Part shown: positions 2,634-23,731 of the stretch, in pieces
How the letters are laid out: each line of letters starts with the position of its first letter
Position numbering within the stretch: the first letter of the stretch is position 1
From: a virus
Virus record (IMG/VR): IMGVR_UViG_3300010885_017439
Coordinates: 1-23,731 of that record
Direction: 5' to 3' (one strand)
DNA: 23,731 nt
Program-made: the position numbers and the translations under genes
The notes under the pieces: model-generated
Databases searched by the model: none
Seen by the model: only the letters and a program-made list of their open reading frames with translations
Told to the model about the DNA's origin: nothing

Positions 2634-3950
2634 TTACAGGCCGGTTGCGCGTGTCTCAAGACGCAGGTAACGGGTAATTCCCGTGCTGGTCTGTGGGACC
2701 ACGTTGCTGACGACTCCGTCAGAAACAGCTGTGGAAGCAACGTTCGAAGCCGTCTTGGCATACGAAATAGTCGTAGCAGCCACTGCAGTTACAGTGAATG
2801 TTCCGTTGAAGGTTGCGTCAACACCAATCACCTTGATCGTCTCGCCAACAAAGATACCGTGAGCAGCGCTCGTGGTGATCGTTGCAACGTTAGACGTCAA
2901 TGCCTTGTTGGTAACGACTGCAGCCTTGTCTCGGCCACTGTACTCGCTGACAGATGCCTCACCGATGATCATAGCACCGAAGCGCACCTTGTAACCAAGG
3001 AGAGCTCGCTGCGAGAGCGGGTCAGTGTGGTCTCCACCAGGAGCGATAAAGTACGTCTGCATCGTCTGTGAGTCACCGACGACGAATGCGTCAGGACCAA
3101 AGAAGAGTGCAGAGTAAACGGTCGTGCCGCTGACATCAAACGTCTTTGCCTCGTTGGAGACAAGGAAGCGAACGCCAGAGTACGCGCCGATCTCACCGTT
3201 CAGCATCGTAAGATTCTGAACGTACTTCGAGGCTTCAAGGAAGCCGTGATTCGAGGTATCGGTCAAAAGGTCATACTGCTGATTTGGGTGGATGATACAG
3301 CGATAGAATCCATCCGGATAAGGAGGGATGTTTGCAGACTTAAGTCGTGCAACTGCCTTCTTGATCTCAAGGCCCGTGAGCTTATAGTCTTGTCGGGCTG
3401 TGCCATCAGCGACATCGCTGATTGTAGCGCCAGCAAGAGCTGCTCGCGTTGAGATTGAGGAGGTAGTGGACTGAGCCTGTGCGTAGTAAACTCGGGCGGT
3501 GCCCGCGTTCATCACGTCACGTACAATTCGGTCCATGGACTGGGCTGCAGCAAACGAGACGCGCTCCGATGCGATCGAAACAAGATCGTGCGGCGAGTCA
3601 ACCTGAACGATATCGCTCAAGCTGGTGTATGCACCGTACTGCTTGACCGAAAAGTATTCAGTCCGAACCGAGAGATTAATCGTCGGATCAGGCGTTACAC
3701 CTTCGGCTAGTTCGGTGAGACCGTGTGAGACGTCCGGATAGCGGACGTAACGGATGCGGTCCGTGCCCTTGACAAACGTGCCAGGGACATAGTTGCTCGG
3801 GAGAGCATGGACCATGTTATTGCGAAGCTCCTTCTGGACCGACTGCGATACCAACTCCTGAACAAGCTTCTGATAGGCATTAGCCTCAGAGCCGTTCAGA
3901 GAGTTAACAAGGTGCAGTGGTGGCCCTGAGAGCGTATTGCTCGTAGCCAT
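2634..3950 (-). CDS. Major capsid protein, N4-gp56-like, with inserted C-terminal domain
   Basis: This 438-residue protein builds the icosahedral shell. Residues 1-340 match my recollection of the N4-gp56 family of HK97-fold capsid proteins. They show an N-terminal helical part, TDRIRYVRYPDVSHGLTELA (63-82) followed by EGVTPDP, then VKQYGAYTSLSDIVQ, a helix with FAAAQSMDRIVRDVMNAG, and FIAPGGDHTDPLSQRALLGY (301-320). The chain returns to a family-like end, TGITRYLRLETRATGL. Between them, residues of about 344-420 form an extra beta-rich domain (LTSNVATITTSAAHGIFVGE at 351-370, then VDATFNGTFTVTAV) of a type seen attached to many phage structural proteins. The ATG has AAGGAG 8 bases upstream, and the scaffold gene lies 14 bases upstream. 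All 20 arginine codons are CGN and none are AGA/AGG, consistent with very high expression. Confidence 0.88.
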   Translation of the reverse strand: MATSNTLSGPPLHLVNSLNGSEANAYQKLVQELVSQSVQKELRNNMVHALPSNYVPGTFVKGTDRIRYVRYPDVSHGLTELAEGVTPDPTINLSVRTEYFSVKQYGAYTSLSDIVQVDSPHDLVSIASERVSFAAAQSMDRIVRDVMNAGTARVYYAQAQSTTSSISTRAALAGATISDVADGTARQDYKLTGLEIKKAVARLKSANIPPYPDGFYRCIIHPNQQYDLLTDTSNHGFLEASKYVQNLTMLNGEIGAYSGVRFLVSNEAKTFDVSGTTVYSALFFGPDAFVVGDSQTMQTYFIAPGGDHTDPLSQRALLGYKVRFGAMIIGEASVSEYSGRDKAAVVTNKALTSNVATITTSAAHGIFVGETIKVIGVDATFNGTFTVTAVAATTISYAKTASNVASTAVSDGVVSNVVPQTSTGITRYLRLETRATGL

Positions 3951-3964
3951 TTAAATACTCCTTC

Positions 3965-4510
3965 TTACTCTTGCCAAGGATTACCAAGGGCCTTAAGGGC
4001 CCCAAGGATGTCCTCAGTCTTCATGGGCTTATCCTTAGCGACGCTACGCTTTGGCGTATTGACGTCTCCAAGGGTCTCTACGGCAGTCTCCTGACCGCCA
4101 GTGAACTGCTTGACGAAGTTCTCGAACTCCGCTGCGCGTTCCGTCTCGTTGAGTCCGCGAACCTTCTCCTGGAACTCGTAGTACTTAGGGAAGTTTGATT
4201 TCAACTTCTCCGTTTGATACTCTGTCCTGGTGACGTTCAGCTCGTCCTCAAGCTGTTTGATTTTCCGCGCTGCCTTCTCAAACTCCGACAGGGAAGCATC
4301 CTCTTGCGAGGCCTTCCACTGAGCGAGCTCGTCGTACTTGGCCCGGAACTCATCTGCTGCCTTTTTGGCTGCCGTGAGTGCCTGGTCCTTTCCGGCTAGA
4401 CGACGCTTCCAAGTGGCGACATCTTCCTCCGACTGAGTGGCAACCTCCGGGTTTTCACCATCTGGCTGCGACTCTAACGGCTGCTGTGCCGCGACTTCAA
4501 GGTCTGCCAT
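3965..4510 (-). CDS. Capsid scaffolding protein
   Basis: This 181-residue, highly charged protein has a disordered acidic N-terminus (residues 1-30), a long predicted coiled coil (about 31-105, for example WKRRLAGKDQALTAAKKAAD and KAARKIKQLEDELN), and a C-terminal tail with basic residues and a short helix (MKTEDILGALKALGNPWQE) suited to contacting the capsid protein. Composition, size and position directly before the major capsid gene are classic for scaffold proteins, which direct procapsid assembly and leave before or during packaging. AAGGAG lies 7 bases before the ATG. No prohead protease gene is visible in the window, so the scaffold probably exits intact or the protease lies elsewhere. 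The call rests on context and composition, because scaffolds diverge fast. Confidence 0.8.
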   Translation of the reverse strand: MADLEVAAQQPLESQPDGENPEVATQSEEDVATWKRRLAGKDQALTAAKKAADEFRAKYDELAQWKASQEDASLSEFEKAARKIKQLEDELNVTRTEYQTEKLKSNFPKYYEFQEKVRGLNETERAAEFENFVKQFTGGQETAVETLGDVNTPKRSVAKDKPMKTEDILGALKALGNPWQE

Positions 4511-4535
4511 CTATTGGCTCCTTCTCTTTACTACA

Positions 4536-4552
4536 GGTCGGAACTTCCGACC
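4536..4552 (-). promoter_or_regulatory. Perfect inverted repeat / hairpin before the scaffold gene
   Basis: An 8-base perfect inverted repeat (GGTCGGAA / TTCCGACC) around one central base lies just after the stop of the 1647-residue protein and before the scaffold ribosome binding site. As RNA it would form a 6-pair G+C-rich stem with a 5-base loop. No U-tract follows in the minus direction. It may be an mRNA-processing or stabilising element or a protein binding site. It is one of only two intergenic hairpins seen, and both flank the scaffold/capsid pair. Confidence 0.55.
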
Positions 4553-4553
4553 T

Positions 4554-7500
4554 TTATCGTCTAAATTCAACCGTGGGGCGATCCCCAGGTACAAGCTTAT
4601 TTTGGATCTGTGTTGGTGTGGTCAACTCGTTGATTGAGTTTAGTAGCATTTTTCCAGTACCAAGTACACCTGTGTTGAGGAATGGCTTACCAAGCTCGTC
4701 AACGAGGTCGGTAGCGTTGTACTGGTCGTATCCCTGCCTAGATACGGTTGAGATCCCGCTTCGTAGCCATGAAGGGATCACTACTGTGATGTCGTCTGGC
4801 AGACCTGGGATTAGCTGGGCAAGTAGGAATAGGTATTCTGGCTGCTCGGCATAGTTCTGATATTCTGCGTTAGGCTGGTTCCTGTCAAAGTAATCCTTCA
4901 TTTTCTGGTAGGCCACATACCCAGCTCCTGGCGCTACCTTGCCAAACGGCTTGTAGAACAGGAACCTAGCTAGCTCTGGCAGGACCTTACCGTACATGTA
5001 GGAGAGTGGGTAAAGGCCAAGGAACTGATGGTTAAGACCGCGCTCAAGCCATCCTCGGTTCTTGTTGAAGTAGTTTACCTTGTCCATAGCATCTGCTGCG
5101 GTCTGGTAGGAGTACTTTACAGCTTGGAATGCTGCCTCCTCTCCGGCGTGGCTCTCAAGCAAAAGGTCAGCTGACCTAGAAAGGATCTGCTGAGTTGATC
5201 TTGCGGTTGACGAAAGGGAACTATCACCCTTCACGATATTGGCAACTACAGCCTTAATCTGAGCCCTTGTAGCAGGGGTTACGTCCTTTGCTCCAGACCT
5301 AACCCGGATCTGCTCAATTAGGTCTGCAAGAGTGTTAAATTCTGCGCCGTACTGTCGAGCGTTACCAAGCGCCTCAATCATCTTTGCACCATCAGCAGCG
5401 CTACCAAGACCTGGATTGAAGTTTTCCATTAGCTCCATAACGATGCTCTTGTTTACCTCAGAAAGAGCGTACTGAGTTGACAGTGCCTTTGACTCGCTAA
5501 CAAAGTCCGTTAGCGCCGACTGGTAGCCTGACTTTGCCTCGTCGTAGTAAAGGCTTGGGTTTTTGAACTCTCTAGCAAAATAACCTGACTGGACTTCAAG
5601 CCTGTTTAGGGCATCGTTTAGCCTTGTAACGTCAAACCCGCTGTCTTTAGCAACGTTTACAATCTTAGCCCTGAGAACTGAGACAACCACTTCTGGCCTG
5701 ACTCCTTCTCCAAGCAACTGCTGGAATGCCTCTGGTGTGTATGCTTTCTCAATGCCGTATGCAGTATTGATTACGTCATTAAGACCGTCAATGCTTGGGT
5801 TTACGGCAAATCCAAATCCTGGCTTCTTAAGGCTATCAATTGCACCGCCACCAAACTTGAACGACTGCATACGCTTATATTCGGAGTACCATCCGATTAG
5901 CTGGTCAAGTGAATTTGTCCCGTACTTTTCCGTAAGGGCAATAAACTCACCAGGCCTGCTTGTTCTGACCCACTCTTGGAACCTAGGCGCCATGTCTGCC
6001 ACAGCCATCACGTCTCTGTAAGATTCCTTGAATTCAGCTGACTTAGTCCACTTAGGCTCGGCAAGCTGATCAAGAGCTCCTCGTGAGCCTTTGGCAGCGT
6101 CAACAGCGTCCATCTTACCTTCAAAGAAGATGTCACGAAGCTTTACGCCTTCCTTTAGCGTGGAAGGTACTCCGTTTCTTGACCCAACCATCGTGGTATA
6201 GAATGCCTGATCGTGGATCTGTTGAGCAAGCGATGAGCTTCTTTCACCCCACGCTGCTCGAAGTTCTTGTGCTGTGTATCCAGCCTCGCTGAGCTTCTTC
6301 TCAACAGCTACCTTGTCAATCCCTCTAAGCTCAGCAAAGAATGGAGATTCAATCAACTCCTGAGCAAAGAACAGAGGGCTATACTTGTACTTAAGCGTTG
6401 GGTAATAGTTCTCTGATACCTTGGCAATGTACCTGCCAAGCATTGGGACGTTCTTTGCCTTTCCTGTAAAGGCCTGAGAATATCCTACCTGCTTAAACTC
6501 TCCTGCGATTGCCCTTGACATCTCATTCTGCAGGTTAACAACTTTCATTCCTAGTCTCTGCAGGTCCCTGTTGCGGATGTCAAGAGAGATTCCCTTTTCC
6601 TTTAGTACGTTATCCATGATCATGTTGTAATCCTGAGGGTCAAGACCGCGCATACCAATGCGCCTCTCAACAGCAAATTCTGCAGTCTTCTTGTAGAACT
6701 CAGTTACCTCGTCAAGAGAGAACCTATCACCAAGAGCCAGCACGAGCCTCTGCTGCGCAGCGTTTCCAATAGTCGTCTGAGCAATTGGTGCCATTAGCGA
6801 CTGGATAGCCGACCTAGTCCTGCCGGCCTTATAGGAGCCAGGCTTTGCAAGATCAGGAAGTCCGTCAACAAAGTCTGATGTAATGTCAAGGAATGGTCTG
6901 CTCTGGGAGGAGATCTCCGGGATAGCGTTCTCTCCCTGCTTCAATCTTCCCACTACAACTGGAGTCTTAATCATCTTTCCTTCTGGTCCAAGACCAATCT
7001 TGTACCCATCAGCCTCAAGCGACCTTACCAGGTCATCAAACTCTCCAACGCTACCACCGATTGCGGTCCATACTGATCGAATCCCAGCTAACTCTTTAGC
7101 GCTAGCAGCCGACACTGTGGCACCGTTATCCATGGCAGACTTAAGCATCCCATAAACTTCATCTGATGAAATGAATCCTCTTGCCATATCTGCACCAGAG
7201 ACCTGATCTGCAATGTCTGCAAACTCCCTAGCTGCGGACTTTGCCCAGAAGCTCTTTGCGTTTGACACTCCTGTAGCCACATCTGGCGCATTCTTGAGAA
7301 TCTCAAACAGAGATGCTAGGATTGGCTGCGGGATATTCTGGAAGGCAGCTGGGTCAAGTGTTCCAGCAATAATCTCATTAAACCTATCGTAAAGTTGGAC
7401 CCACTCTGATACTTTTCCGGCAATCAGGCTGTCGTTGCGAACGATTGTAATTCTAGATGCAATACCCTGGTCAACCTCGTCAATTGCCTTGTACGCTTCA

Positions 7501-9497
7501 CGAGCGCTAGTAGATAGCTTCTTACCAAGAAGCTTTCCGATCTCTTCAACGTATGCGGCAGAGTTTCGAACACCGCCTGCTGCAAGCGTTTGGGCTAGAG
7601 AGAAAATCCTCTTAATGTTTCCAACCCTATTGACGTTGTAACCGTAAGTTCCGGACCTAGACATAGCAAGTCGACTGGCTAGTTCCCTCAAGAGAGGTAA
7701 GCTCTTAGTAAGATTTCCTGCGGAGTCAAAGTATCTTCCGCCAGAGATAACTCCATCAACTCCTAGCCTTGCTCCTCCGAAGATCTCCTCAAGGACCACG
7801 GCAACAGAGGTAGCAGAAGGCTCAACAACACCAGTTGTTCTGGCCAAGTCATCTGCTCCTGACCTCTCAAAGTTCTGTGCAAGGCTCCTAGCGGCCTCAA
7901 TGACCCTCCCAGTAGCTGCTCTCCCACCGAGGCGAAGTATGTTTGCCTCTGCAGTTACTGATGCCTCGATGCTATCTACCATCTTTCCTTGGGTAAGATC
8001 CTGAGATAGTTTCCAATTTTGGACAGCTTCGTTTGTAGGGTTGTACGTTGGCCCAAATTCAGCCTTAGCTGATCTTTCAGCTAGGCGAAGTGCAAGCCTC
8101 TTCTTGGCAAGTGTTACGATATTGTCGTTGCCAATGATTTCGAATCTGGTCTTAGGGTCAATAATCCTTGAACCATTCACCTTTGAAGTATCCTGTAGGT
8201 AACCCTTAATTTCCTCAACGCTCAGTGTGTATACTTCCTCAAGGGTCTTGCCCTTGGACCGGGCGGAGTCTGTTAGCTTTTTAATTACGTAGTCTGTGCT
8301 GGTGCCATCAATGGAACGCTGTCGGTATTCTGCAATAGCCACCTTAATATCTGTATCAATAAGCTCAACAATTGCATCAGCCTTCTGCTGCAGGTTGTTA
8401 AATCGGGAATCCTTAACTGCAGAAACAAGTTGGTTCTGCAGTGCAAGTCCAATTCGTGCTACAGCAGTCCCTCTTCCCTTTACTCCAGAAATTCTTTCTG
8501 CAGCCTTTCCGTAAGAAACAAGTCCTTCGTCTCCAAACGCTTTTGCAGTTGACTGCGCAAGTGTATACGCAAGACCACGCTTTATCCCTGCGCTTACCCC
8601 GCGAACCTTGCCGAATGTACCCTTTTCAAACTCAGAGAACAGCTTGTACTTGTTTAGCCAATTGGGGGCCTCTGCAGCCTTTCCAGCAGCCTCGTACGCC
8701 TGTAGCAACTTAACCTTGTTCCCCATATCAAGACCAACACCGGCCCCTGCAAGAGCGCCAGTGAACTTGCTTGCGATCTTCCCGCCAGCAGCATACCCAG
8801 CTACGCCGCCGATGATTCCACCTACTGGTCCAGCAACGGAGCCTGCTGCAACTCCAGCCCCAACTGCGGCAGCCCTAGTACCTGCCTTAGCAAGGTTTAG
8901 CTTGCCAACGATGGCCGGAGTGAGGTTAAGAGGGTCAAGAAGAATTGATGCGCCAAGGTTAATCGTTGGGTCGTTGCTGTATGACTTGTTGTTCTTGTAC
9001 ATGTAGTCAAGAATTTCTTGCTCTGTAGCTCCAGCATTAATCATTGCCTGTACGTCTGAAGGCAGGTCTGACCTGTTCTGAATTCGTGCTTTTGCTCCGA
9101 CTCCAGGAAGGTTGTCTGCAGTAAATTTACCTGGTTGCGAAATAAGATTAATACCAGCACCACCGATTGCTCCTACGGCGTCTCCAACAGTCTTGTCTCC
9201 TATCCTGAGATCGCTTATGTAGTCAACAGGTGGAAGCATACCGGTAATATCTGCTGCGCCTTTAAGAACAGCTCCAATTGCCTGCCCAACCATGCCGATT
9301 CCTCGCAATGGTGCTGAGAAAGCAAAGTCAAGAGGGCTCTTGGAGTCTCCGCCAGATGAAAGCTCTCCTACCACGTCACCGAACCTATTAGGACCCATCG
9401 TTCCTTGAGGAGTCAAACGCAACTCTAGGTCTGACGAAGTGATACCCGGTCCGCTACTGCTAGTTGTTCCTGGATCGTATGGATCTGTAAATGGCAT
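4554..9497 (-). CDS. Giant (1647 aa) putative internal virion / DNA-ejection protein
   Basis: I do not recognise a named family. The start overlaps the previous stop as TAATG. Visible parts are a Ser/Gly/Pro-rich N-terminus (1-55); a Gly/Ala-rich glycine-zipper region at about 208-256 (AAAVGAGVAAGSVAGPVGGI, GGVAGYAAGGKIASKFTGAL) that could cross a membrane; a very long mostly helical middle (about 260-1470) including a stretch rich in aromatic residues (YYPTLKYKYSPLFFAQEL); and a hydrophobic, aromatic module at about 1476-1535 (NRGWLERGLNHQFLGLYPLS, then MYGKVLPELARFLFYKPFG). It ends DRPTVEFRR, matching the end of the glycine-zipper protein at 21394-23731. Length, zipper and position between portal and scaffold suggest a protein packaged in the head and injected with DNA. 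The main alternative is a tape measure protein, which would be misplaced here. The function is inference. Confidence 0.5.
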   Translation of the reverse strand: MPFTDPYDPGTTSSSGPGITSSDLELRLTPQGTMGPNRFGDVVGELSSGGDSKSPLDFAFSAPLRGIGMVGQAIGAVLKGAADITGMLPPVDYISDLRIGDKTVGDAVGAIGGAGINLISQPGKFTADNLPGVGAKARIQNRSDLPSDVQAMINAGATEQEILDYMYKNNKSYSNDPTINLGASILLDPLNLTPAIVGKLNLAKAGTRAAAVGAGVAAGSVAGPVGGIIGGVAGYAAGGKIASKFTGALAGAGVGLDMGNKVKLLQAYEAAGKAAEAPNWLNKYKLFSEFEKGTFGKVRGVSAGIKRGLAYTLAQSTAKAFGDEGLVSYGKAAERISGVKGRGTAVARIGLALQNQLVSAVKDSRFNNLQQKADAIVELIDTDIKVAIAEYRQRSIDGTSTDYVIKKLTDSARSKGKTLEEVYTLSVEEIKGYLQDTSKVNGSRIIDPKTRFEIIGNDNIVTLAKKRLALRLAERSAKAEFGPTYNPTNEAVQNWKLSQDLTQGKMVDSIEASVTAEANILRLGGRAATGRVIEAARSLAQNFERSGADDLARTTGVVEPSATSVAVVLEEIFGGARLGVDGVISGGRYFDSAGNLTKSLPLLRELASRLAMSRSGTYGYNVNRVGNIKRIFSLAQTLAAGGVRNSAAYVEEIGKLLGKKLSTSAREAYKAIDEVDQGIASRITIVRNDSLIAGKVSEWVQLYDRFNEIIAGTLDPAAFQNIPQPILASLFEILKNAPDVATGVSNAKSFWAKSAAREFADIADQVSGADMARGFISSDEVYGMLKSAMDNGATVSAASAKELAGIRSVWTAIGGSVGEFDDLVRSLEADGYKIGLGPEGKMIKTPVVVGRLKQGENAIPEISSQSRPFLDITSDFVDGLPDLAKPGSYKAGRTRSAIQSLMAPIAQTTIGNAAQQRLVLALGDRFSLDEVTEFYKKTAEFAVERRIGMRGLDPQDYNMIMDNVLKEKGISLDIRNRDLQRLGMKVVNLQNEMSRAIAGEFKQVGYSQAFTGKAKNVPMLGRYIAKVSENYYPTLKYKYSPLFFAQELIESPFFAELRGIDKVAVEKKLSEAGYTAQELRAAWGERSSSLAQQIHDQAFYTTMVGSRNGVPSTLKEGVKLRDIFFEGKMDAVDAAKGSRGALDQLAEPKWTKSAEFKESYRDVMAVADMAPRFQEWVRTSRPGEFIALTEKYGTNSLDQLIGWYSEYKRMQSFKFGGGAIDSLKKPGFGFAVNPSIDGLNDVINTAYGIEKAYTPEAFQQLLGEGVRPEVVVSVLRAKIVNVAKDSGFDVTRLNDALNRLEVQSGYFAREFKNPSLYYDEAKSGYQSALTDFVSESKALSTQYALSEVNKSIVMELMENFNPGLGSAADGAKMIEALGNARQYGAEFNTLADLIEQIRVRSGAKDVTPATRAQIKAVVANIVKGDSSLSSTARSTQQILSRSADLLLESHAGEEAAFQAVKYSYQTAADAMDKVNYFNKNRGWLERGLNHQFLGLYPLSYMYGKVLPELARFLFYKPFGKVAPGAGYVAYQKMKDYFDRNQPNAEYQNYAEQPEYLFLLAQLIPGLPDDITVVIPSWLRSGISTVSRQGYDQYNATDLVDELGKPFLNTGVLGTGKMLLNSINELTTPTQIQNKLVPGDRPTVEFRR

Positions 9498-12295
9498 TAG
9501 AGTGCAATCCTATCTACGTAACGGCCGCCGCCACTTGCGCCTCTAGACTGTGATGGTGTGTTCCTAAACGACGTAGGAGCAGAACCTAGTCTAGGTGCTG
9601 TACCAGGTGCCACAGTTGGAGCCTTAGGTGCAATCACTGGGGCTGGTTTAGGTGTAATAACAGGCATCCTGCTGTCCCGTAGATCAGGTGCAGTTACTGG
9701 AGCCGTTGCTCCTGGCTTAGGCATGTTTTCACCACCAAGATTCCTTAGCGTGTATGCCATGTAGTCTGAGGTTGGGTTGACGTACGGTACGCCAGAAGTT
9801 CCGTATCCACTTGTAAATCCAGAACTTGCAGTAAGCTGACTACCTCCAGAGGCAGGTGGTCGACCTGGCCAGAAGTTTGGATCTGCTGTTGCCACGTCAG
9901 TGCTTCCTGGCTGCCTTTGAGGAATGGCTCCACGCTCACCGCCTGTTCCTGATGTTCCCGTGTCACCAGGCTTAGGAATTAAGTTTCTTTGGTCTGTGGT
10001 GAGAGAATTAATGAGAAGGTTGGTATAAGCTCCAGTCCTGTCCTCAATTCCCTTTCCTTTTAGCCACTCAGAAATTCGCGACTTCCACTCATCTGAAGTT
10101 CCTGAGCCATACTTGCCAAATAGGCTTGTGAGGTCTCCCTTTAGGTTTGACGTTCCTACGTAGGTTCCGTCTGTCACTGTTTTGCTATCCAGCCACATCT
10201 GCCCGTTCATGCCTCTTTCGGTGCCCATGTAATCGGCAAAAAGACCGATATAGTCCTTGTCTTGGAAAAGCTTAATGTAGAATTCTCCAATTGACGCGTC
10301 GGAAATATTTCCTCCTTCGTCAACAACAAGCGTAGGAAGTCGTCCGTCGGTTCCAAACCCAGTAAGTCTTTCAAACCCAGGCTTGTTCTTATTTTCGGCA
10401 GCCCATCCCTTCATAGCTTCAAGGTCCTGGTATGAGAACCTATAGAACAGGTTGTCTCCGCCTCGATACTGGATGATGTCGTTGTTGTCAATTCTTCCAG
10501 ATCCGCTTCCGCCACCAGGAACTGGGATAAACTTAAAGTTATCCTGACCAGTAACTGCTCTTTGCTCTGCGTAGTATGGCTTCCCAGCTCTGTCGTAAGC
10601 TAGGACAAATTTGTTCGGGTCTTGTACGTCAAACTTGTTAATTGCCTGGAAAGTAAAGTACCTTACCTTTGGATCCCATCTGTATGTCAGGACTAGATTC
10701 TTATCTTCAGCGATTAGTCGTGGCTTTTCGGTGGAGTCAATCTTAAGCCTAAGAACGTCAGCTACAGTCATTGATCCGTTACTTCCAATTTGCTGCAGTA
10801 GAGCAACTCTGTTTAGTCCTAGCTGCATTAGGGCGTCTCCAAACGGCCCTAGTGCGGTCAAATCTTCATTCACTTCAAGTTGGGTAAGAGTGTCTCCAAG
10901 TTGATCGGCTACGTCATATTCGCTTTGCCCGGAGATAACTGATATTCTTGTAATAAGATCGCTAATAGTCATAGGGTCGTTACCGCCGAATAGACCGTTA
11001 ACGTCTCCGTTGTTGATACCAACAATTGTTTCTGGGATATTGTTATCTGCAATGTTGTCAAACCCAGCTCCGCCTATTGCTCCAACAAAGTCAGACAAGG
11101 CTTTCTGTGTTGCTGACTGATCAGCTGCATTTGGGACGCTAATAGACGCACCTGACTTGTTCAACTCAATTGCTAGAGCCTCAACAGCTTTCTTGCTTGT
11201 TGATACAAAGATACCCTTGCTAAACTGTGAGCTAAACCCAGAGATAAACCCTGGCCATGTCTGTAGCTCCTTGCCGTACCCTTGGTCTTGCAACTTCTTA
11301 ATGTCATCAGCAGCAAGTTCAAGCTGATCCATGATGTTCCTTGCAGTCTCATCGTCTAGACCGTATGAACTCATTGCGGACTCAATAACTGACTGAACGT
11401 CAACATTGTTGTTGTTCAGTACATTAGAGAAGTTAGTAAGCCAATCGTCTCCAGAGCCATTCTTGATATCATTATTCAGGATGGAAACAGAGTTCTTATC
11501 TGGTAGGTAGTCCTTCAGAACACCACCTAGAAGCTTCTGTACACCACGAGCAATAGCGTCTGTCTCTGCCTTGAGCTCGTTGTCCACCTTGTCTACACGT
11601 GCTTGAGCCGCGTCGGACTCTCGACGAGCAATTGCGTCTGCCCTAGCAGATAGGATGTCTTGGTATGTCCTTGACTCCTCTGTCAGGCCTGCCTCTTTAG
11701 CCCGGATTAGCTCCTTGTCGTAGAAATTTACTAGCTGGTCTGCGGTGAACTTCTTTTCCTTGAATCCGTTTACCATGTCGGAAGCAGAACTGCTGTATGA
11801 GATCGTAAACATCTTGTTATTAAGTCGCTCACGGTCAGCATCAGTCATTGCTGGGTCTGCGGCAATTCGCTCAACAAACTTCTCGTACTCCGCGTCAGTA
11901 ATCTTACCTGTCCCAGATCCACCGACTAGGGATAGGTCAATTGAGTTACCGTTTTGGTAAGCTGCGTCTAGGATGTTCTCGTAGTCTCGAAGAGCAGCGA
12001 TACGGAACTCCTCTGCCTTAGTCTTTAGCTTCTCAGCGCCGCCAGAGTCTCCTGCTGCAGAAGCAGCTGCAGCCTGTGCCAAGTACCACGCAACAATGTT
12101 GTTTGCCGTGGCTGACTTGCTTACACCGTCAATAGTGAATAGACCAGCAGCAGAGCCGGACCGCATGTTATTGTTATATGCGGTAAGCATGTTCTGCTCC
12201 TGGTCCTGACGCTCCTCCTTAAGGAGCGCGTAGATCAGAGCTGAAAGGTTCTGTGATCCGCTAGCTGAGCGGCCGAATTTACCCTTGCGTGCCAT
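9497..12295 (-). CDS. Large (932 aa) putative virion protein, unknown family
   Basis: The family is unrecognised. I chose the ATG at 12295 because GGAGG sits 5 bases before it; an in-frame ATG at 12307 lacks a good site. The gene overlaps the portal stop by 17 bases and ends as TAATG with the 1647-residue gene. The N-terminal 240 residues are strongly helical, with Ala-rich and charged segments (ALIYALLKEERQDQEQNM; ADAIARRESDAAQARVDKVD), resembling a coiled structural protein. The middle (about 330-700) is mixed, with a beta-rich part (LVLTYRWDPKVRYFTFQAIN). The last 150 residues are low-complexity Pro/Ala/Thr/Gly (VITPKPAPVIAPKAPTVAPG) and end RYVDRIAL. No catalytic motif was found. Being coupled to the portal and to a giant glycine-zipper protein suggests an internal core or ejection protein, by context only. 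Confidence 0.5.
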   Translation of the reverse strand: MARKGKFGRSASGSQNLSALIYALLKEERQDQEQNMLTAYNNNMRSGSAAGLFTIDGVSKSATANNIVAWYLAQAAAASAAGDSGGAEKLKTKAEEFRIAALRDYENILDAAYQNGNSIDLSLVGGSGTGKITDAEYEKFVERIAADPAMTDADRERLNNKMFTISYSSSASDMVNGFKEKKFTADQLVNFYDKELIRAKEAGLTEESRTYQDILSARADAIARRESDAAQARVDKVDNELKAETDAIARGVQKLLGGVLKDYLPDKNSVSILNNDIKNGSGDDWLTNFSNVLNNNNVDVQSVIESAMSSYGLDDETARNIMDQLELAADDIKKLQDQGYGKELQTWPGFISGFSSQFSKGIFVSTSKKAVEALAIELNKSGASISVPNAADQSATQKALSDFVGAIGGAGFDNIADNNIPETIVGINNGDVNGLFGGNDPMTISDLITRISVISGQSEYDVADQLGDTLTQLEVNEDLTALGPFGDALMQLGLNRVALLQQIGSNGSMTVADVLRLKIDSTEKPRLIAEDKNLVLTYRWDPKVRYFTFQAINKFDVQDPNKFVLAYDRAGKPYYAEQRAVTGQDNFKFIPVPGGGSGSGRIDNNDIIQYRGGDNLFYRFSYQDLEAMKGWAAENKNKPGFERLTGFGTDGRLPTLVVDEGGNISDASIGEFYIKLFQDKDYIGLFADYMGTERGMNGQMWLDSKTVTDGTYVGTSNLKGDLTSLFGKYGSGTSDEWKSRISEWLKGKGIEDRTGAYTNLLINSLTTDQRNLIPKPGDTGTSGTGGERGAIPQRQPGSTDVATADPNFWPGRPPASGGSQLTASSGFTSGYGTSGVPYVNPTSDYMAYTLRNLGGENMPKPGATAPVTAPDLRDSRMPVITPKPAPVIAPKAPTVAPGTAPRLGSAPTSFRNTPSQSRGASGGGRYVDRIAL

Positions 12296-14261
12296 TTGGG
12301 CCTCCATTCATCTGGCCAGCCAACTCCGGTGGGAGTGGTCCCTGACCGTTCATCATCTGATCTGCCATTGCCTGTTCTGGCGGGATGGCCCCAGGTTGAC
12401 CTGGTTGCTGTGCGTTTGCTGGGAGCATCTCTGGCGGAAGGTTTCCCATCTCTCCGCCGTTCATCATCTCGCTTCCTCCAGATGCTCCAACCTGACGGAA
12501 GGCGTTTGCTGTGGATGCCTGCTGCTGAGCCATCTGCTGCTGAGCTACCTGCGGCGCCATCATCTGGAGCTGCTGGAACATCTGCATCAGCTGGCCCATC
12601 GTAAGCACTGCAGCTGGATTGAGAGTTGCGTCTGTCTGCTCGTCTCGGATGAGTTCCTTCTCGCCTTCTGGGTCTTCCACGCCAACACGGTCCATTGCGC
12701 GCTCCGCGCTCCAGATCCTGCCCTGTACGAGGTTGAGAGCCGTCTGAGCAAGCTCAAGGGTATCTCGAGGAGTTAGCTCTGGTGGGGTGATCTCAAGTCG
12801 GTATTCACCAGCAATAATCTCGCTGATTGGTCGCTCCTTGGCCTCCCACATCCGGGCGCTGAGCTCCCATACCTTTTTGATCCAGGAGTACAGAAGCTTG
12901 CGCTTTGGCGCAATCCTCTGTTCATAGTTAGCAACGAGAGACGCGATGGCACGGGACGAACCAAGAACACTGCTAGGCGCAAGGCCAAGCAGAAGATCGT
13001 TGAGGCCCGTTACCACCGCGATCTCTCGGTCAATCCGCTTGTTATAGTCTTCAAGCTGGAACTGAGGGATGAACGGAGTAATAGGTCGAAGCTCATTGCC
13101 AGGACCAGGCGTGGCCACTCGGCCAGGCTTAGGAATGGCGTTAGCCGGGACCTCATCTGGTGCATCCCCTCCGACGAGCTGCCACATCTGCCCGCCGACA
13201 ATTGACTGAATCATTTGAGCCTGTGCCGTGATCCGCTCGTCCTTCTCTCGGAGGAGTTGCTCAACGTCAAACAGCTCTGACTTACCGTATGGGCTGCCTG
13301 GGATCAGGCTGTTCCTGAGCGGGATGTACGGAAGCTCTCCGCCCAGCTCTGGGTGCTTCTTGATCCAAACTACCGTGTTGCCTACAATGAGTGCATTGCA
13401 GACTACAGGTGCCTTACCGGGCTTGCTAGGGTGCTTGTACCAATAGTCTAGTACGGTGATCTGCATCTGCTCGTACTCGCTCTGGATGCGCTTAGGCTGA
13501 CGCTCGTACTCCCTGTGGTACAGGTTGGCAAGTGGGTCAGAGTGAGTTGCGTGGTAGGTGTATGGGTGCCAGCTGCCGCCCTCTTGAACTGGGATTACCT
13601 CGATGCCGAAGTCTTCCATAACAGCCTGTGGGCTAAGCCCGTAGGTGTAGATAGCCCAGTCAATGCGATTGTAGTTGGAGTCACCGTACCCTAGTAGAAG
13701 GTTCTCTGGGGTATCAATGATCGTGATCTTGGGGATCTTGGCCTTAGGGTCCCAGTAAACCTTGGCAGCAGTGTGGCCGTACAGGCTCTTGTATAGACAC
13801 GCCTCCTCAAGCCTTACCTCAAACTCGTTGGCCTCGGCCCAAGCGAAGTACAGCCTCTCTCTTCGAGCAGCAGAAGCACGCCCCTGCTTGTCCATTGCTG
13901 TAGGTACGTAGTTTACAATAGGTGGGATAGCCTGAAGTGAGGATGGGATGTTTACGTAAGCAGGGTGCACGTTAACAGAAACGTGTGCACGACCAGCTGT
14001 ACGCGCCGAAGGGTCGCTTGCCCAGTGGTCTGCCCCGCCTAGTGTAATCGTGTTAGGGTAGTAGAAGTGGTCGTACCGGCGGAACATGGAACGCAGACGA
14101 GCCTGCTCAGGCTCCTGGATCTGCTTACGCTTGTAAGCCTCTGCCAGTACTGAGTAGTTCTCATCGGTGTTTGGGTCAATCTCCTGCATCATAAGTGCTG
14201 TGGAGGCCATTGACAGAGCCTTCTGCTCCTTATCTGGTAGCTTCACCTTCGGCTGAGCCAT
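12279..14261 (-). CDS. Portal protein
   Basis: This 660-residue protein would form the dodecameric ring at one head vertex through which DNA enters and leaves. It directly follows TerL (TAATG overlap, GGAGG 9 bases before the ATG), the standard order. Recognisable features are a helical N-terminus with RLRSMFRRYDHFYYPNTITL, a conserved-looking core (RRERLYFAWAEANEFEVRLE then EACLYKSLYGHTAAKVYWDP) found in many portal proteins, a beta-rich wing (YIPLRNSLIPGSPYGKSELF then DVEQLLREKDERITAQAQMI), a stem/crown helix with ALNLVQGRIWSAERAMDRVG, and a Gln/Met/Gly/Pro-rich C-terminal tail (about 560-660) that is probably disordered and may contact packaged proteins. The length fits portals of podophage-like and some siphophage groups. 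The call relies on context plus these patterns. Confidence 0.85.
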   Translation of the reverse strand: MAQPKVKLPDKEQKALSMASTALMMQEIDPNTDENYSVLAEAYKRKQIQEPEQARLRSMFRRYDHFYYPNTITLGGADHWASDPSARTAGRAHVSVNVHPAYVNIPSSLQAIPPIVNYVPTAMDKQGRASAARRERLYFAWAEANEFEVRLEEACLYKSLYGHTAAKVYWDPKAKIPKITIIDTPENLLLGYGDSNYNRIDWAIYTYGLSPQAVMEDFGIEVIPVQEGGSWHPYTYHATHSDPLANLYHREYERQPKRIQSEYEQMQITVLDYWYKHPSKPGKAPVVCNALIVGNTVVWIKKHPELGGELPYIPLRNSLIPGSPYGKSELFDVEQLLREKDERITAQAQMIQSIVGGQMWQLVGGDAPDEVPANAIPKPGRVATPGPGNELRPITPFIPQFQLEDYNKRIDREIAVVTGLNDLLLGLAPSSVLGSSRAIASLVANYEQRIAPKRKLLYSWIKKVWELSARMWEAKERPISEIIAGEYRLEITPPELTPRDTLELAQTALNLVQGRIWSAERAMDRVGVEDPEGEKELIRDEQTDATLNPAAVLTMGQLMQMFQQLQMMAPQVAQQQMAQQQASTANAFRQVGASGGSEMMNGGEMGNLPPEMLPANAQQPGQPGAIPPEQAMADQMMNGQGPLPPELAGQMNGGPNGTQG

Positions 14262-16050: not shown

Positions 16051-16513
16051 CTTCAATCTCCTCAGCTTCCATTTCAATCATGTTTACCACAGGACCTCCG
16101 CCAAGGATTCCTGCTAGAGTCACCGACAGCTCCCTGTCTGCAGACTTCTCAACCCTGCGGTCAATCATCTCTTGAGCTCTCAGGCCCTCAGCTAGTGTTG
16201 GTACAAGCTCTCCGGCCTCTACCATTGCGATTACGTGTCCCTTAACCAGTGCTGCAAGATCTCCGTCAGCCTTGAGCTTGTCTTGATTCTTCTTGAACTT
16301 CTTGATTACTGCAGCCTTTGCCGTCTGGTATTCGTTAGTAAGGTGGTTGCGCCTGTGGCCACCAAGGGTAATCCTTGAGATGTAGGAGTTGTTCTCCTTT
16401 AGCCAGTCGCTAACCTTCGTGTCAGGTTGCCCGTTTGCCATCCTCTGATTAATCTGTTCGGCAAACGGGCTCCTGCACGCGGCGCACCGTTCAAGTACGG
16501 GCGCTAGATTCAT
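16022..16513 (-). CDS. Terminase small subunit candidate (zinc-finger DNA-binding)
   Basis: This 163-residue protein has an N-terminal putative zinc-binding helix-turn-helix: C10-x2-C13 in RCAACRSPF, a recognition-helix-like stretch (TKVSDWLKENNSYISRITLG), then H53 and H57 in GGHRRNHL. This Cys-Cys...His-RNH layout is recurrent in small proteins encoded just before TerL in tailed phages. A charged helical middle (about 60-125) could drive oligomerisation, and the acidic C-terminus (EMEAEEIEDAEDSSLDS) is typical of a segment that contacts the large subunit. The start overlaps the holin stop as TAATG, with AGGAG just upstream. It would recognise the packaging site and load TerL. Assignment is by motif and position; a transcription regulator is the main alternative. 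Confidence 0.65.
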   Translation of the reverse strand: MNLAPVLERCAACRSPFAEQINQRMANGQPDTKVSDWLKENNSYISRITLGGHRRNHLTNEYQTAKAAVIKKFKKNQDKLKADGDLAALVKGHVIAMVEAGELVPTLAEGLRAQEMIDRRVEKSADRELSVTLAGILGGGPVVNMIEMEAEEIEDAEDSSLDS

Positions 16514-16725
16514 TATTCTCCTGTGTAGCCAAACGCCTTGTCGTTAGGGTTCAGCCATCGAAGTACCACAGGTGCAATTGCTGCCAACCCTGCTGCCACA
16601 ACGCTCTTGATTGCGTCTCCGTTGAGGTCAAAAGCTGACCCGCCAAGAGCCAAGAACTGAGCGATGCAGCCAGCGATGAATGACCGACCCCAGGATGCGA
16701 ACAGTGCCTTCTTTTCCTTAGTCAT
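16513..16725 (-). CDS. Holin, small two-helix type (r1t-like)
   Basis: This 70-residue membrane protein has two predicted transmembrane helices at about 14-32 (FIAGCIAQFLALGG) and 38-57 (AIKSVVAAGLAAIAPVVLRW). They are separated by a short acidic loop (FDLNGD), after a basic N-terminus (MTKEKK) and before a polar tail (LNPNDKAFGYTGE). This matches class II holins, especially the r1t-like family, which form inner-membrane holes that release the endolysin at a set time. AGGAGAA lies directly upstream of the ATG, and the gene follows the peptidase by 7 bases. It overlaps the TerS candidate as TAATG, so lysis and packaging genes share the transcript. The exact family is from memory, but the holin role is well supported by topology and neighbours. 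Confidence 0.75.
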   Translation of the reverse strand: MTKEKKALFASWGRSFIAGCIAQFLALGGSAFDLNGDAIKSVVAAGLAAIAPVVLRWLNPNDKAFGYTGE

Positions 16726-16732
16726 ATTTCTC

Positions 16733-17323
16733 CTACTTCTTTACGATGATGCAACGCTTAAACGGTGCCTCACCCTTACTTGAGGCAATAGCCTTGAGCT
16801 GAACTTCGGTTACTAGAACCGCAAACTGCTCCTTGCCCTTGCCGGTAAATGTTGGGTCGGCAAACTGCCAGCCCAGCTCTTCGTCATATGCTGCAGCTAC
16901 CATGTGTCCGTAAGTGGCCCCCTTATGTCGCCCTACGTACCTCTGGTGCCACGAGCTGATCGCTTGTGGCGGGTAGTTCTTTGCGGCATCTACATTGATG
17001 ATCAGGGCAGCACCCTTCTTGGCGCTTTCCACGCAGTCGTTCCAGTCCCTTGGATACCTGGCGTTGGCGCCAAGTACCTTGCAGGTCTTTACTAGATCCC
17101 ATAGACTTGAACCGTTGTCACTAACACCATGCTGCTCCTTAAACCCTGTTGCCTTCTCTTTGGCCTTAATTCCTTCTGCTGCTGTAATATCCTTGCCCAG
17201 GACCCACGAAGAGGCGCACGCAGCGCTCGATGGGCCGCAGTCGTCTAGAATGCCGCCCTTCTCAACGTGATCAAGCTGGCTCCGGACCTTAAGCTTGTTC
17301 ACTTTCCCTGTCCCGCTAGCCAT
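16733..17323 (-). CDS. Endolysin candidate: C39-like cysteine peptidase
   Basis: This 196-residue protein has the papain-fold signature of C39-type peptidases: C29 in GGILDDCGPSSAACASSW, H140 in ATYGHMVAAAYDEE and D156 in GWQFADPTF, in the right order and spacing. Bacteriophage proteins of this type cleave peptide bonds in peptidoglycan, and the next gene is a holin, so a cell-wall-degrading role is likely. There is no signal peptide or signal-arrest helix, so export would depend on the holin. There is also no separate wall-binding domain, since the catalytic domain fills the chain. GGAGG lies about 8 bases before the ATG, and the start overlaps the XhlA-like gene by 25 bases. An alternative is a peptidase that processes a virion protein, but the location makes lysis more likely. 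Confidence 0.72.
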   Translation of the reverse strand: MASGTGKVNKLKVRSQLDHVEKGGILDDCGPSSAACASSWVLGKDITAAEGIKAKEKATGFKEQHGVSDNGSSLWDLVKTCKVLGANARYPRDWNDCVESAKKGAALIINVDAAKNYPPQAISSWHQRYVGRHKGATYGHMVAAAYDEELGWQFADPTFTGKGKEQFAVLVTEVQLKAIASSKGEAPFKRCIIVKK

Positions 17324-21393: not shown

Positions 21394-23731
21394 CTATGGT
21401 CTAAAGTCTAGACTTGGCCTATTCATGTCAATACCTGGGGACCTGTTGTACTGGTCAGTCTTGTTCTTGTTTCCAAGAATATCTGTGTAGATGAAGTCTG
21501 CTGCTTCTCCGCCTGCGATTGATCCACCGATTGCCCCAACCCCTGCTCCGAAGAACCCACCTGCTAGACCTCCGAGGATGCTTCCGGTAGTAGTCATTAA
21601 GGCTCTCCCTAGGTCTCCGCCAGTAGCTGCAGTGAACCCAAGGTTAAGAGCTGCCGCACCGAGTCCAAGCTTAGGGGCTAGGTTCTTGGGGGCAAGGTTA
21701 ATCGCATTGAATGCTCCGACCTGGAGCATGCTGATTGGGTCTAGGTATCCCTTAGCTGCTAGCACAGCTGCGTCAGCTACTGCTCCAGCTCCAAACCCGT
21801 GCCATCCGTGGTAATACCGTTGGGAGGTTGGTCCCCTCAGCGGAGATGTAAATTTCTTTATACTTTCAAGCGGGTTCTGTCCAGCTATTGAGTACATCTT
21901 GCCCTGGTCAAATGATGCCCCGAAAGCCTCATCTCCACCTTCAATCCTTTGGCGAGGAGAAGCAACTCCTCCGGTTGCGTTACCGCTGATGTCGGCCTCG
22001 GGTGTGAACTTGCCAAACTCATTTCCTGATTTAGCCAGTTCTGCAGTTGGGATCATGTCTCTAGGCTCTTGGAATCTGTTGATTAGAGCTCGTACTTCCT
22101 GTGGTCCCTTTAGCATAGCCCTGTCAAACATTTGGAAGAATAGGTTTCTTGGTCCTAACTCAATTACTGCATCAAGACCGTATCGAGTAGTAAGTTCGGT
22201 TTCAATTTTGTCTGCGTATGTCGGATCCCCCAGGATGTCGTTTGCAAACCCGTTTATAGCCTTGTTGAGATCCACCGCATCTTCGTTATAGTAGAACTTC
22301 CTCAGGCCATCAGAGATCTCTTTCCACCTATCGCCAGAGTAAAGTTCAATTGGCCTTGCAGCAAAAGATGGCTCTCCATCAATGGTCCTGGTTGGGAATT
22401 TATTGACAGGCTCAAGAGAGGCGACTGCCTTCTCTGGAGGATTTGCCTGGTTAGTATCTGCAGTCGTTCCGGCGCTCATAGTAACCCTATACGGAGTGCC
22501 CTTGTATGTAATCATCGCATTTTCTAGGAGGTTTGGGGCAGCGTTGGCGGTTCGAATGCTCCATGCCTCCCTAAAGATTAGAGCAAGTGCAACGTCTGGG
22601 TCGCTGTTGATTGCAGACAAGATGCGCTGTCTGGCGTCAGTAACACTACCCATCTGCTCACCAGAGAATAGCTTACGTAGGGCTGCAATCTCGTCATCTG
22701 TGGCCTCACCTGATAGGTACCTGGCAACCTCTGTTGCAATACCCTTTAATGCAGGTGGCTCATCTGGTGATTGAGCGATCTTAACCTTGTCCTGCTCTGG
22801 AGGTGGGCCGTAGTCAAACTCCCCATCTCCGTATGAACTGTAGGATGCACCAGTGTCAATTGCAACTGGCTGTCGAACTTGAGCCTCAAAGTCAGGAAGG
22901 ACCCTTCTCATTCTGACACCGTTCTCTTCAAAAGTCTGACCTGCGTTAGGGTCAATAATTCCAGCAGCACGATCAATGCCGTAAGACATAGTTCGTGCAA
23001 TCTTTGCCCACCTCTGAATTAGTTCAGCCGGTGGGACACCTTCTGGGGCATCCGCTCCTAGCGGACGTAGATCTCCATCGCCAGGGCTCTTTGACCCATA
23101 TGCAATCGCAGTGGAGAACCTGAACCCAAGTCTAGCAATGGCGTCAGCTGCAAATAGAAGATCCCTAACTGCTCGCCTCTTATCCAGAGGGCTATAGATT
23201 GGCCTATCGGAGCTGGCCCTAACTTTTCCGCCTTCCCCTTCAATCCGACCGGTAGCAATGTCTGGGTCAACTGGATAGCTCTTCCTAATAGGGAAACTGT
23301 ACCTACCAGTTACTCCTCCAGTTACATCGTCTGCCCTCATTGATGCCTTATCTAGGTAGTCTGGAGCTATACTGACAATTGCATCACTAACAAACGAAGC
23401 AAACCCAGGGTTAGCGTCAAGAGATGATTTCTGAGCGTTAAGAATATCAATCTGGTCAATAACGAAGTTCTTTACTGCGTCTTCAATCAGTGTTTGGTCA
23501 ATAACAGGAGATCGCTTTGCTTCTGAACCGAATGTTTTTACTGGGGCCTTTGCGTTGCTAATAAGCATTGCTTGGGTACCTGCAACCGCTTCCTGCTTCA
23601 CCTTGTTAGGTGAGACCCTAGCTGGAGACTCAACTCCGATATCTGGTGTCTGCACTGGAATGATCTGACCATCCTTAACCTGCCAAGGCAATACCTTTGG
23701 GAATCCAAACGCCTGCATGTAAACTGGGTCA
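21394..23731 (-). CDS. Large glycine-zipper virion protein, partial (5' end outside window)
   Basis: The frame is open to the window edge. The first visible ATG (23718) has no ribosome binding site and in-frame codons continue upstream (D-P-V-Y), so the start probably lies outside. At least 778 codons are visible. Residue numbers here count from that ATG. The family is not recognised. The N-terminal 600 residues are mixed alpha/beta with helical stretches (RRAVRDLLFAADAIARLGF; AELIQRWAKIARTMSYGIDR). Residues of about 640-740 are Gly/Ala-rich, with a clear glycine zipper at 712-737 (GSILGGLAGGFFGAGVGAIG), suited to membrane insertion. It ends NRPSLDFRP, matching the end of the 1647-residue protein. 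A role as an ejection or tail-core protein is inferred from the zipper and virion-gene context. An alternative is a tail tape or lytic tail component. Confidence 0.55.
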   Translation of the reverse strand, partial: DPVYMQAFGFPKVLPWQVKDGQIIPVQTPDIGVESPARVSPNKVKQEAVAGTQAMLISNAKAPVKTFGSEAKRSPVIDQTLIEDAVKNFVIDQIDILNAQKSSLDANPGFASFVSDAIVSIAPDYLDKASMRADDVTGGVTGRYSFPIRKSYPVDPDIATGRIEGEGGKVRASSDRPIYSPLDKRRAVRDLLFAADAIARLGFRFSTAIAYGSKSPGDGDLRPLGADAPEGVPPAELIQRWAKIARTMSYGIDRAAGIIDPNAGQTFEENGVRMRRVLPDFEAQVRQPVAIDTGASYSSYGDGEFDYGPPPEQDKVKIAQSPDEPPALKGIATEVARYLSGEATDDEIAALRKLFSGEQMGSVTDARQRILSAINSDPDVALALIFREAWSIRTANAAPNLLENAMITYKGTPYRVTMSAGTTADTNQANPPEKAVASLEPVNKFPTRTIDGEPSFAARPIELYSGDRWKEISDGLRKFYYNEDAVDLNKAINGFANDILGDPTYADKIETELTTRYGLDAVIELGPRNLFFQMFDRAMLKGPQEVRALINRFQEPRDMIPTAELAKSGNEFGKFTPEADISGNATGGVASPRQRIEGGDEAFGASFDQGKMYSIAGQNPLESIKKFTSPLRGPTSQRYYHGWHGFGAGAVADAAVLAAKGYLDPISMLQVGAFNAINLAPKNLAPKLGLGAAALNLGFTAATGGDLGRALMTTTGSILGGLAGGFFGAGVGAIGGSIAGGEAADFIYTDILGNKNKTDQYNRSPGIDMNRPSLDFRP

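Follow-up and report, generated by a model that had tools for sequence, protein, structure and literature searches.

The window, by which we mean the whole stretch of DNA that was analysed, is a 23.7-kb contig of an uncultured phage. Its head genes all lie on the minus strand, in the order terminase, portal, 936-aa protein, 1647-aa protein, probable scaffold and major capsid protein (Table 1). The 1647-aa protein is one of two giant proteins encoded in the window; the other runs off the contig end. Searches of the annotated phage collection with both giants and the terminase gave no match, and a host search in genome contigs found nothing. The homologues discussed below come from ~110 loci of uncultured phages in all. 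Three queries, the terminase, the capsid protein and the 1647-aa protein, were scanned against viral contigs and gave loci L001–L065, and an alignment of 13 sequences covering the C-terminal half of the 1647-aa protein yielded 65 loci, down to an identity of 24%.

Table 1. Coordinates of the genes and features discussed in the text.
Feature	Position	Strand	Basis or remark
Major capsid protein	2634..3950	(-)	PHROG 1357, E 3e-40; Phage_capsid_4
Probable scaffold protein	3965..4510	(-)	Assigned from position and composition
Stem-loop AGGTCGG-AAGTT-CCGACCT	4535..4553	(-)	Directly 3' of the stop codon of the 1647-aa gene; covaries in relatives
1647-aa giant, mostly helical	4554..9497	(-)	Ejection/virion-type by gene position
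Tip E-F-R-R, C-terminus of the 1647-aa protein	4557..4568	(-)	21 distinct homologue tails aligned; codon counts
Variable linker, predicted disordered, ~residues 1627-1643 of the 1647-aa protein	4569..4619	(-)	~0.1 pairwise identity per column; AF2 pLDDT ~27
936-aa protein, adjoining the portal gene	9497..12307	(-)	
Portal protein	12279..14261	(-)	PHROG 64 / SPP1_portal
NRPSLDFRP, C-terminus of the second giant	21397..21423	(-)	Final Pro alone constant (16/16 homologues)
Second giant, C-terminal third	21394..23731	(-)	Open frame running off the contig end; full-length homologues

Two other observations were made along the contig and its relatives. In many relatives, the two ORFs at 16513-17323 of the window are represented by one fused ORF of ~345–380 aa, because both queries match the same ORFs. 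One of the two window ORFs encodes 196 aa with a DCGPSSA motif that by eye resembles C39-type peptidases, and the other encodes a membrane-like product of 70 aa. The portal proteins end in at least two unrelated classes of C-termini, ...NKTINRLAR and ...LPPELLAALGGGQ-like, which track the phage clades.

The original prediction held that the two giants carry one and the same C-terminal docking or packaging tag. Its underlying observation was confirmed. ORF 4554-9497(-) ends in DRPTVEFRR (codons 4557-4583(-), stop codon 4554-4556; longer end ...KLVPGDRPTVEFRR), while ORF 21394-23718(-) ends in NRPSLDFRP (codons 21397-21423(-), stop codon 21394-21396; longer end ...GIDMNRPSLDFRP). The two tails are written in different codons, as claimed, and the pattern is absent from every other called protein of the window. 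The description of the second ORF as a complete protein of 774 residues, however, does not hold. Because its frame continues right up to the contig end and its homologues measure 2,252–2,569 aa, the ORF covers no more than the C-terminal third of a protein of ~2,250–2,570 aa; full-length homologues are found at L074:283-7884 and L075:417-8126 and in L076 and L078.

How far the two tails agree beyond chance was assessed over the 19 complete tails of the window, which form 171 pairs, with peptides drawn at random from the interior of these proteins as the null. The pair DRPTVEFRR/NRPSLDFRP ranked first of the 171 at every length tried, from 6 to 15 residues. The chance of finding a score this high in any of the 171 pairs was 0.0015 for 9 residues, 0.002 for 8, 0.01 for 10, 0.04 for 15 and 0.31 for 6. 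These values are suggestive rather than decisive, because the 9-residue frame was picked after the match had been seen, and with such post-hoc noticing the likeness goes only modestly beyond chance.

A single tag on both giants, recognised by one receptor in the head, would account for this best-scoring pair. It would also agree with the closest sisters, the only relatives in which the core [DE]FR persists, each time in a single protein: L021 ends ...LEFRP in the second family, and L001 and L010 end ...SEFRR in the 1647 family. The DRP ahead of EFRR is kept merely as RP, in the closest sister. Six relatives in which both tails are readable tell against such a tag. Their tails mismatch, with end-aligned scores of -8 to -16 versus +26 in the window, and the two tails are no more similar in matched genomes than in permuted genomes. 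The second-giant homologues end in I-x-P-R-x-x-P, V-R-x-P or x-I-L-P, whereas in these phages the homologues of the 1647-aa protein end in G-T-F-R-K or T-T-L-R; examples are IKITPRIGP with TDVGTFRK, IKISPHIGP with TDIGTFRK, and PTVRIP with NAITTLR. Because the tails differ in these six genomes, the very outcome that the original prediction had named as speaking against it, a tag common to both giants is refuted, and one shared receptor in the head is highly improbable. Judging from the homologues, the resemblance in the window is a lineage-specific coincidence, and each giant family appears to have a tip of its own, with the conserved last residue being R or K in the 1647 family versus P in the second family.

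The tip of the 1647-aa protein was found to be conserved in its own right. Tips were counted in 21 distinct genus-level homologues with ~35% identity or more, which represent perhaps five or six independent clades. The end [FL]R[RK]? (that is, [F/L]-R-[R/K] or T-L-R) was present in 20 of these 21 homologues, compared to a base rate of 1.0% at random internal positions, and the last residue was R or K in all 21 (internal base rate 11.8%). The linker, comprising the 15–20 residues before the tip, varies among the homologues in both length and sequence, as is apparent from tails such as LVPGDRPTVEFRR, SEEGRPSSSEFRR, NPLEYTPVEFRK, NPIEYSGEFRK, KFNTDVGTFRK, GNAITTLR and SETVSLRR. In the family alignment, pairwise column identity rises from ~0.1 in the linker to 0.32–0.54 in the last columns. 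Codon differences within groups show a synonymous to nonsynonymous ratio of 34:2 in the last three codons and 53:151 in the twelve preceding codons; these counts stem from overlapping, non-independent pairs and from groups assigned by hand with the tails partly in view, although the contrast is large.

Hence, at the protein level the tip is conserved beyond its flanking linker, as expected of a C-terminal short linear motif. Its Arg is encoded by AGA, AGG, CGG and CGC, and its Phe or Leu by six codons. Because the tip codons vary synonymously to this extent, the constraint acts on the protein and not on the DNA. AF2 predicts that the tails of both giants are unstructured. These sequence comparisons support the interpretation that the tip of the 1647 family is a selected short linear motif at the end of a disordered tether.

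An alternative explanation would be that the end is conserved through nucleic-acid signals, namely the ribosome-binding site of the next gene or a stem-loop after the stop codon, rather than through the protein. This is what we found in the 936-aa family, where the AGGAG of the next gene encodes RS, RR or RK. The 936-aa protein was considered as a third tagged protein, and this candidate was rejected: in most relatives its tail RSL/RRAL/RKL is the Shine-Dalgarno sequence (AGGAG) of the next, overlapping gene. The explanation is also partly true for the VRxP tails of the second family in several phages, where GTGAGG precedes TAATGG, and in L043 and L048 the stem-loop takes in the stop codon. 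In the 1647 family, however, these signals lie 3' of the stop codon in nearly all sequences, and the codons vary synonymously. The tip codons of the 1647-aa gene contain no Shine-Dalgarno sequence, with the next gene starting ~40 nt further on, and across the family the ribosome-binding site of the next gene lies 20–40 nt downstream. Moreover, L061 keeps VRLP even though its ribosome-binding site comes after the stop codon. An origin of the conserved end in nucleic-acid signals is therefore very improbable.

The stem-loop behind the stop codon of the 1647-aa gene is a DNA or RNA feature separate from the tip, and precedes the scaffold and capsid genes. Over 18 aligned sequences, 94.8% of its positions are paired, with 30 double-change cells. 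Its covariation was 0.736 versus 0.286 in shuffles, and seven of the eight pairs have changed on both sides. The loop stays near AAGTN, and no U-run follows the stem-loop. Possibly, it helps to process or terminate the RNA of the scaffold and capsid genes, or controls their translation.

The conserved ends might also serve to prevent degradation, if R, K or P at the end of a disordered tail makes it resistant to tail-specific proteases and to the readers of C-end degrons. The predicted disorder of both tails would suit this explanation, as would the constancy of the last residue, which is always R or K in the 1647 family and always P in the second family. Yet, protection of this kind leaves the F/L and Arg that are fixed in 20 of the 21 1647 homologues unexplained, and in distant 1647 homologues the last residue is Y, D, G or P. 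We consider it distinctly unlikely.

Homologues of the 1647-aa protein with 25–30% identity carry other tips, among them KDYFDIY, SQLVELPK, KIPEIP and QQLRNP, and so the motif is not required by the 1647 family as such. The tip would thus belong to a genus-level group, with tips being replaced over longer times. The distant homologues L121 and L122 end in KIPEIP or KLPRIP, which resemble the second-giant tails KLPTRILP and VRIP of other phages. This likeness may reflect either chance or an exchange of tips.

For the second giant, 16 distinct complete C-termini were available. Proline was the last residue in all 16 (for instance in L032, L049, L061 and L077), compared to 5.5% proline overall, and the residues ahead of it are clade-specific. 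Ribosome-binding sites overlap some of these tails. A proline right before the stop codon slows termination in bacteria. Ahead of the tail, which has an AF2 pLDDT of 24–31, lies a glycine-rich helical region. Full-length relatives carry clade-variable domains near their N-terminus (DUF7831, cpYpsA (SLOG) and DprA-like), in a region that falls off the window's contig; these domains are candidates for injected counter-defence. The second giant had also seemed, by eye, to contain a NADAR domain, but this was not confirmed. If the second giant docks at all, it would do so through a contact of its own.

Searches of Pfam, PHROGs and NCBIfam with the 1647-aa protein gave no firm family, a PDB profile search gave no match, and no catalytic domain was found in this protein. 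The AlphaFold models of the two giants had low confidence, with a mean pLDDT of 39 and 54. The 1647-aa model had a single significant Foldseek match (E 1.3e-6), to a phage protein named for a large polyvalent-protein-associated domain, which, given the weakness of the model, serves as no more than a lead. Within the head module, the gene of the 1647-aa protein is flanked by portal-side genes and the scaffold gene, the arrangement expected of an ejection or internal virion protein. This position is best explained if the 1647-aa protein acts as a virion protein of the ejection type.

The original prediction of a docking or packaging tag thus survives in part: the tip of the 1647-aa protein is selected and the position of its gene fits a protein incorporated into the head, whereas the claim that both giants have the tag in common is lost. 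Our preferred interpretation, to which we assign a probability of roughly 45%, is that the tip docks the 1647-aa protein onto a partner in the prohead. During prohead assembly, the tip would bind a conserved surface of the major capsid protein, the scaffold or the portal. A few copies of the large helical protein would thereby be held inside the head near the portal, and would later be ejected along with the DNA. The tip is kept in phages whose capsid protein is 78–93% identical to that of the window, and is different where this identity is ~50%. This parallel would fit a partner among the head components, but common descent gives the same picture, because all head genes diverge together.

Alternatively, the tip might mediate self-assembly or contact with a partner outside the head, such as the neighbouring 936-aa protein or the host envelope after ejection. 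The genes of the 936-aa and 1647-aa proteins are adjacent and co-diverge, with an identity of ~40% each at a capsid identity above 80%. However, the tips stay similar while the 936-aa protein falls to ~40%. We regard this alternative as doubtful.

Docking within the prohead, our preferred interpretation, could be extended to a wider scheme. Giant proteins might be loaded into the heads of these phages by short C-terminal address tags that a surface of the capsid or scaffold reads, in an encapsulin-like manner, with a separate tag for every cargo family and with new tags taking the place of old ones as the head proteins diverge. We consider this scheme rather unlikely. Apart from T4, little is understood of the way in which phage proheads choose the ejection and cargo proteins that they take in. 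With a C-terminal tag of four residues, which could be removed or transferred to a reporter protein, the loading of cargo would become open to direct experiment. Such a tag would also link phage heads to the shells of encapsulins, relatives of the HK97-type capsids.

In T4, the internal proteins and Alt are sent into the prohead by a short peptide, the capsid-targeting sequence, which is N-terminal and is removed by the prohead protease. The motif of the 1647-aa protein sits at the extreme C-terminus instead, and is not a capsid-targeting sequence of the T4 type. In gene order, the parallel is with gp44, an ejection protein of staphylococcal phage 80alpha, which is encoded between portal and scaffold and enters procapsids at low copy number (PMC7290940). 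The gene of the 1647-aa protein has the same position, although gp44 is much smaller.

Polyvalent proteins of phages and conjugative elements are described as very large multidomain proteins that are encoded near head genes and are thought to be packaged and injected (PMC5512222). The full-length relatives of the second giant, with their DUF7831, cpYpsA-SLOG and DprA-like domains, would be in keeping with such proteins (PMC5512222, PMC9503650). The 1647-aa protein differs in that it has no detected catalytic domain, and the available part of PMC5512222 describes no comparable C-terminal tip in polyvalent proteins. According to the same paper, the N4 virion RNA polymerase, likewise giant and ejected, has an encapsidation determinant towards its C-terminus (PMC5512222). 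This determinant, however, is a region of 1,400 aa, compared to a tip of four residues in our case.

Encapsulin targeting peptides are short C-terminal peptides that follow linkers of 10–20 residues and bind the inner face of the shell, for example PLTVGSLRRGG in Myxococcus xanthus and NTGGDLGIRK in Thermotoga (PMC7925596). The tip of the 1647-aa protein shares several of these properties. It is a short peptide at the extreme C-terminus after a flexible linker, it places hydrophobic beside basic residues, and its cargo gene lies beside one that encodes a capsid-type shell. The group ending in DVGTFRK has V-G-T-F-R-K where Myxococcus has V-G-S-L-R-R, and the group ending in ETVSLRR also resembles the PLTVGSLRR core. 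Against the consensus [LI]-x-[VI]-G-S-L-[RK], the VEFRR of the window ranks within 36% of gene tails, and we rejected it as an encapsulin targeting peptide. Only the GTFRK group (top 2–4%) and the SLRR group (top 4%) approach this consensus. A further difference is that the shell would here be a phage capsid protein. By analogy, the tip of the 1647-aa protein may work like an encapsulin targeting peptide, though we do not class it as one.
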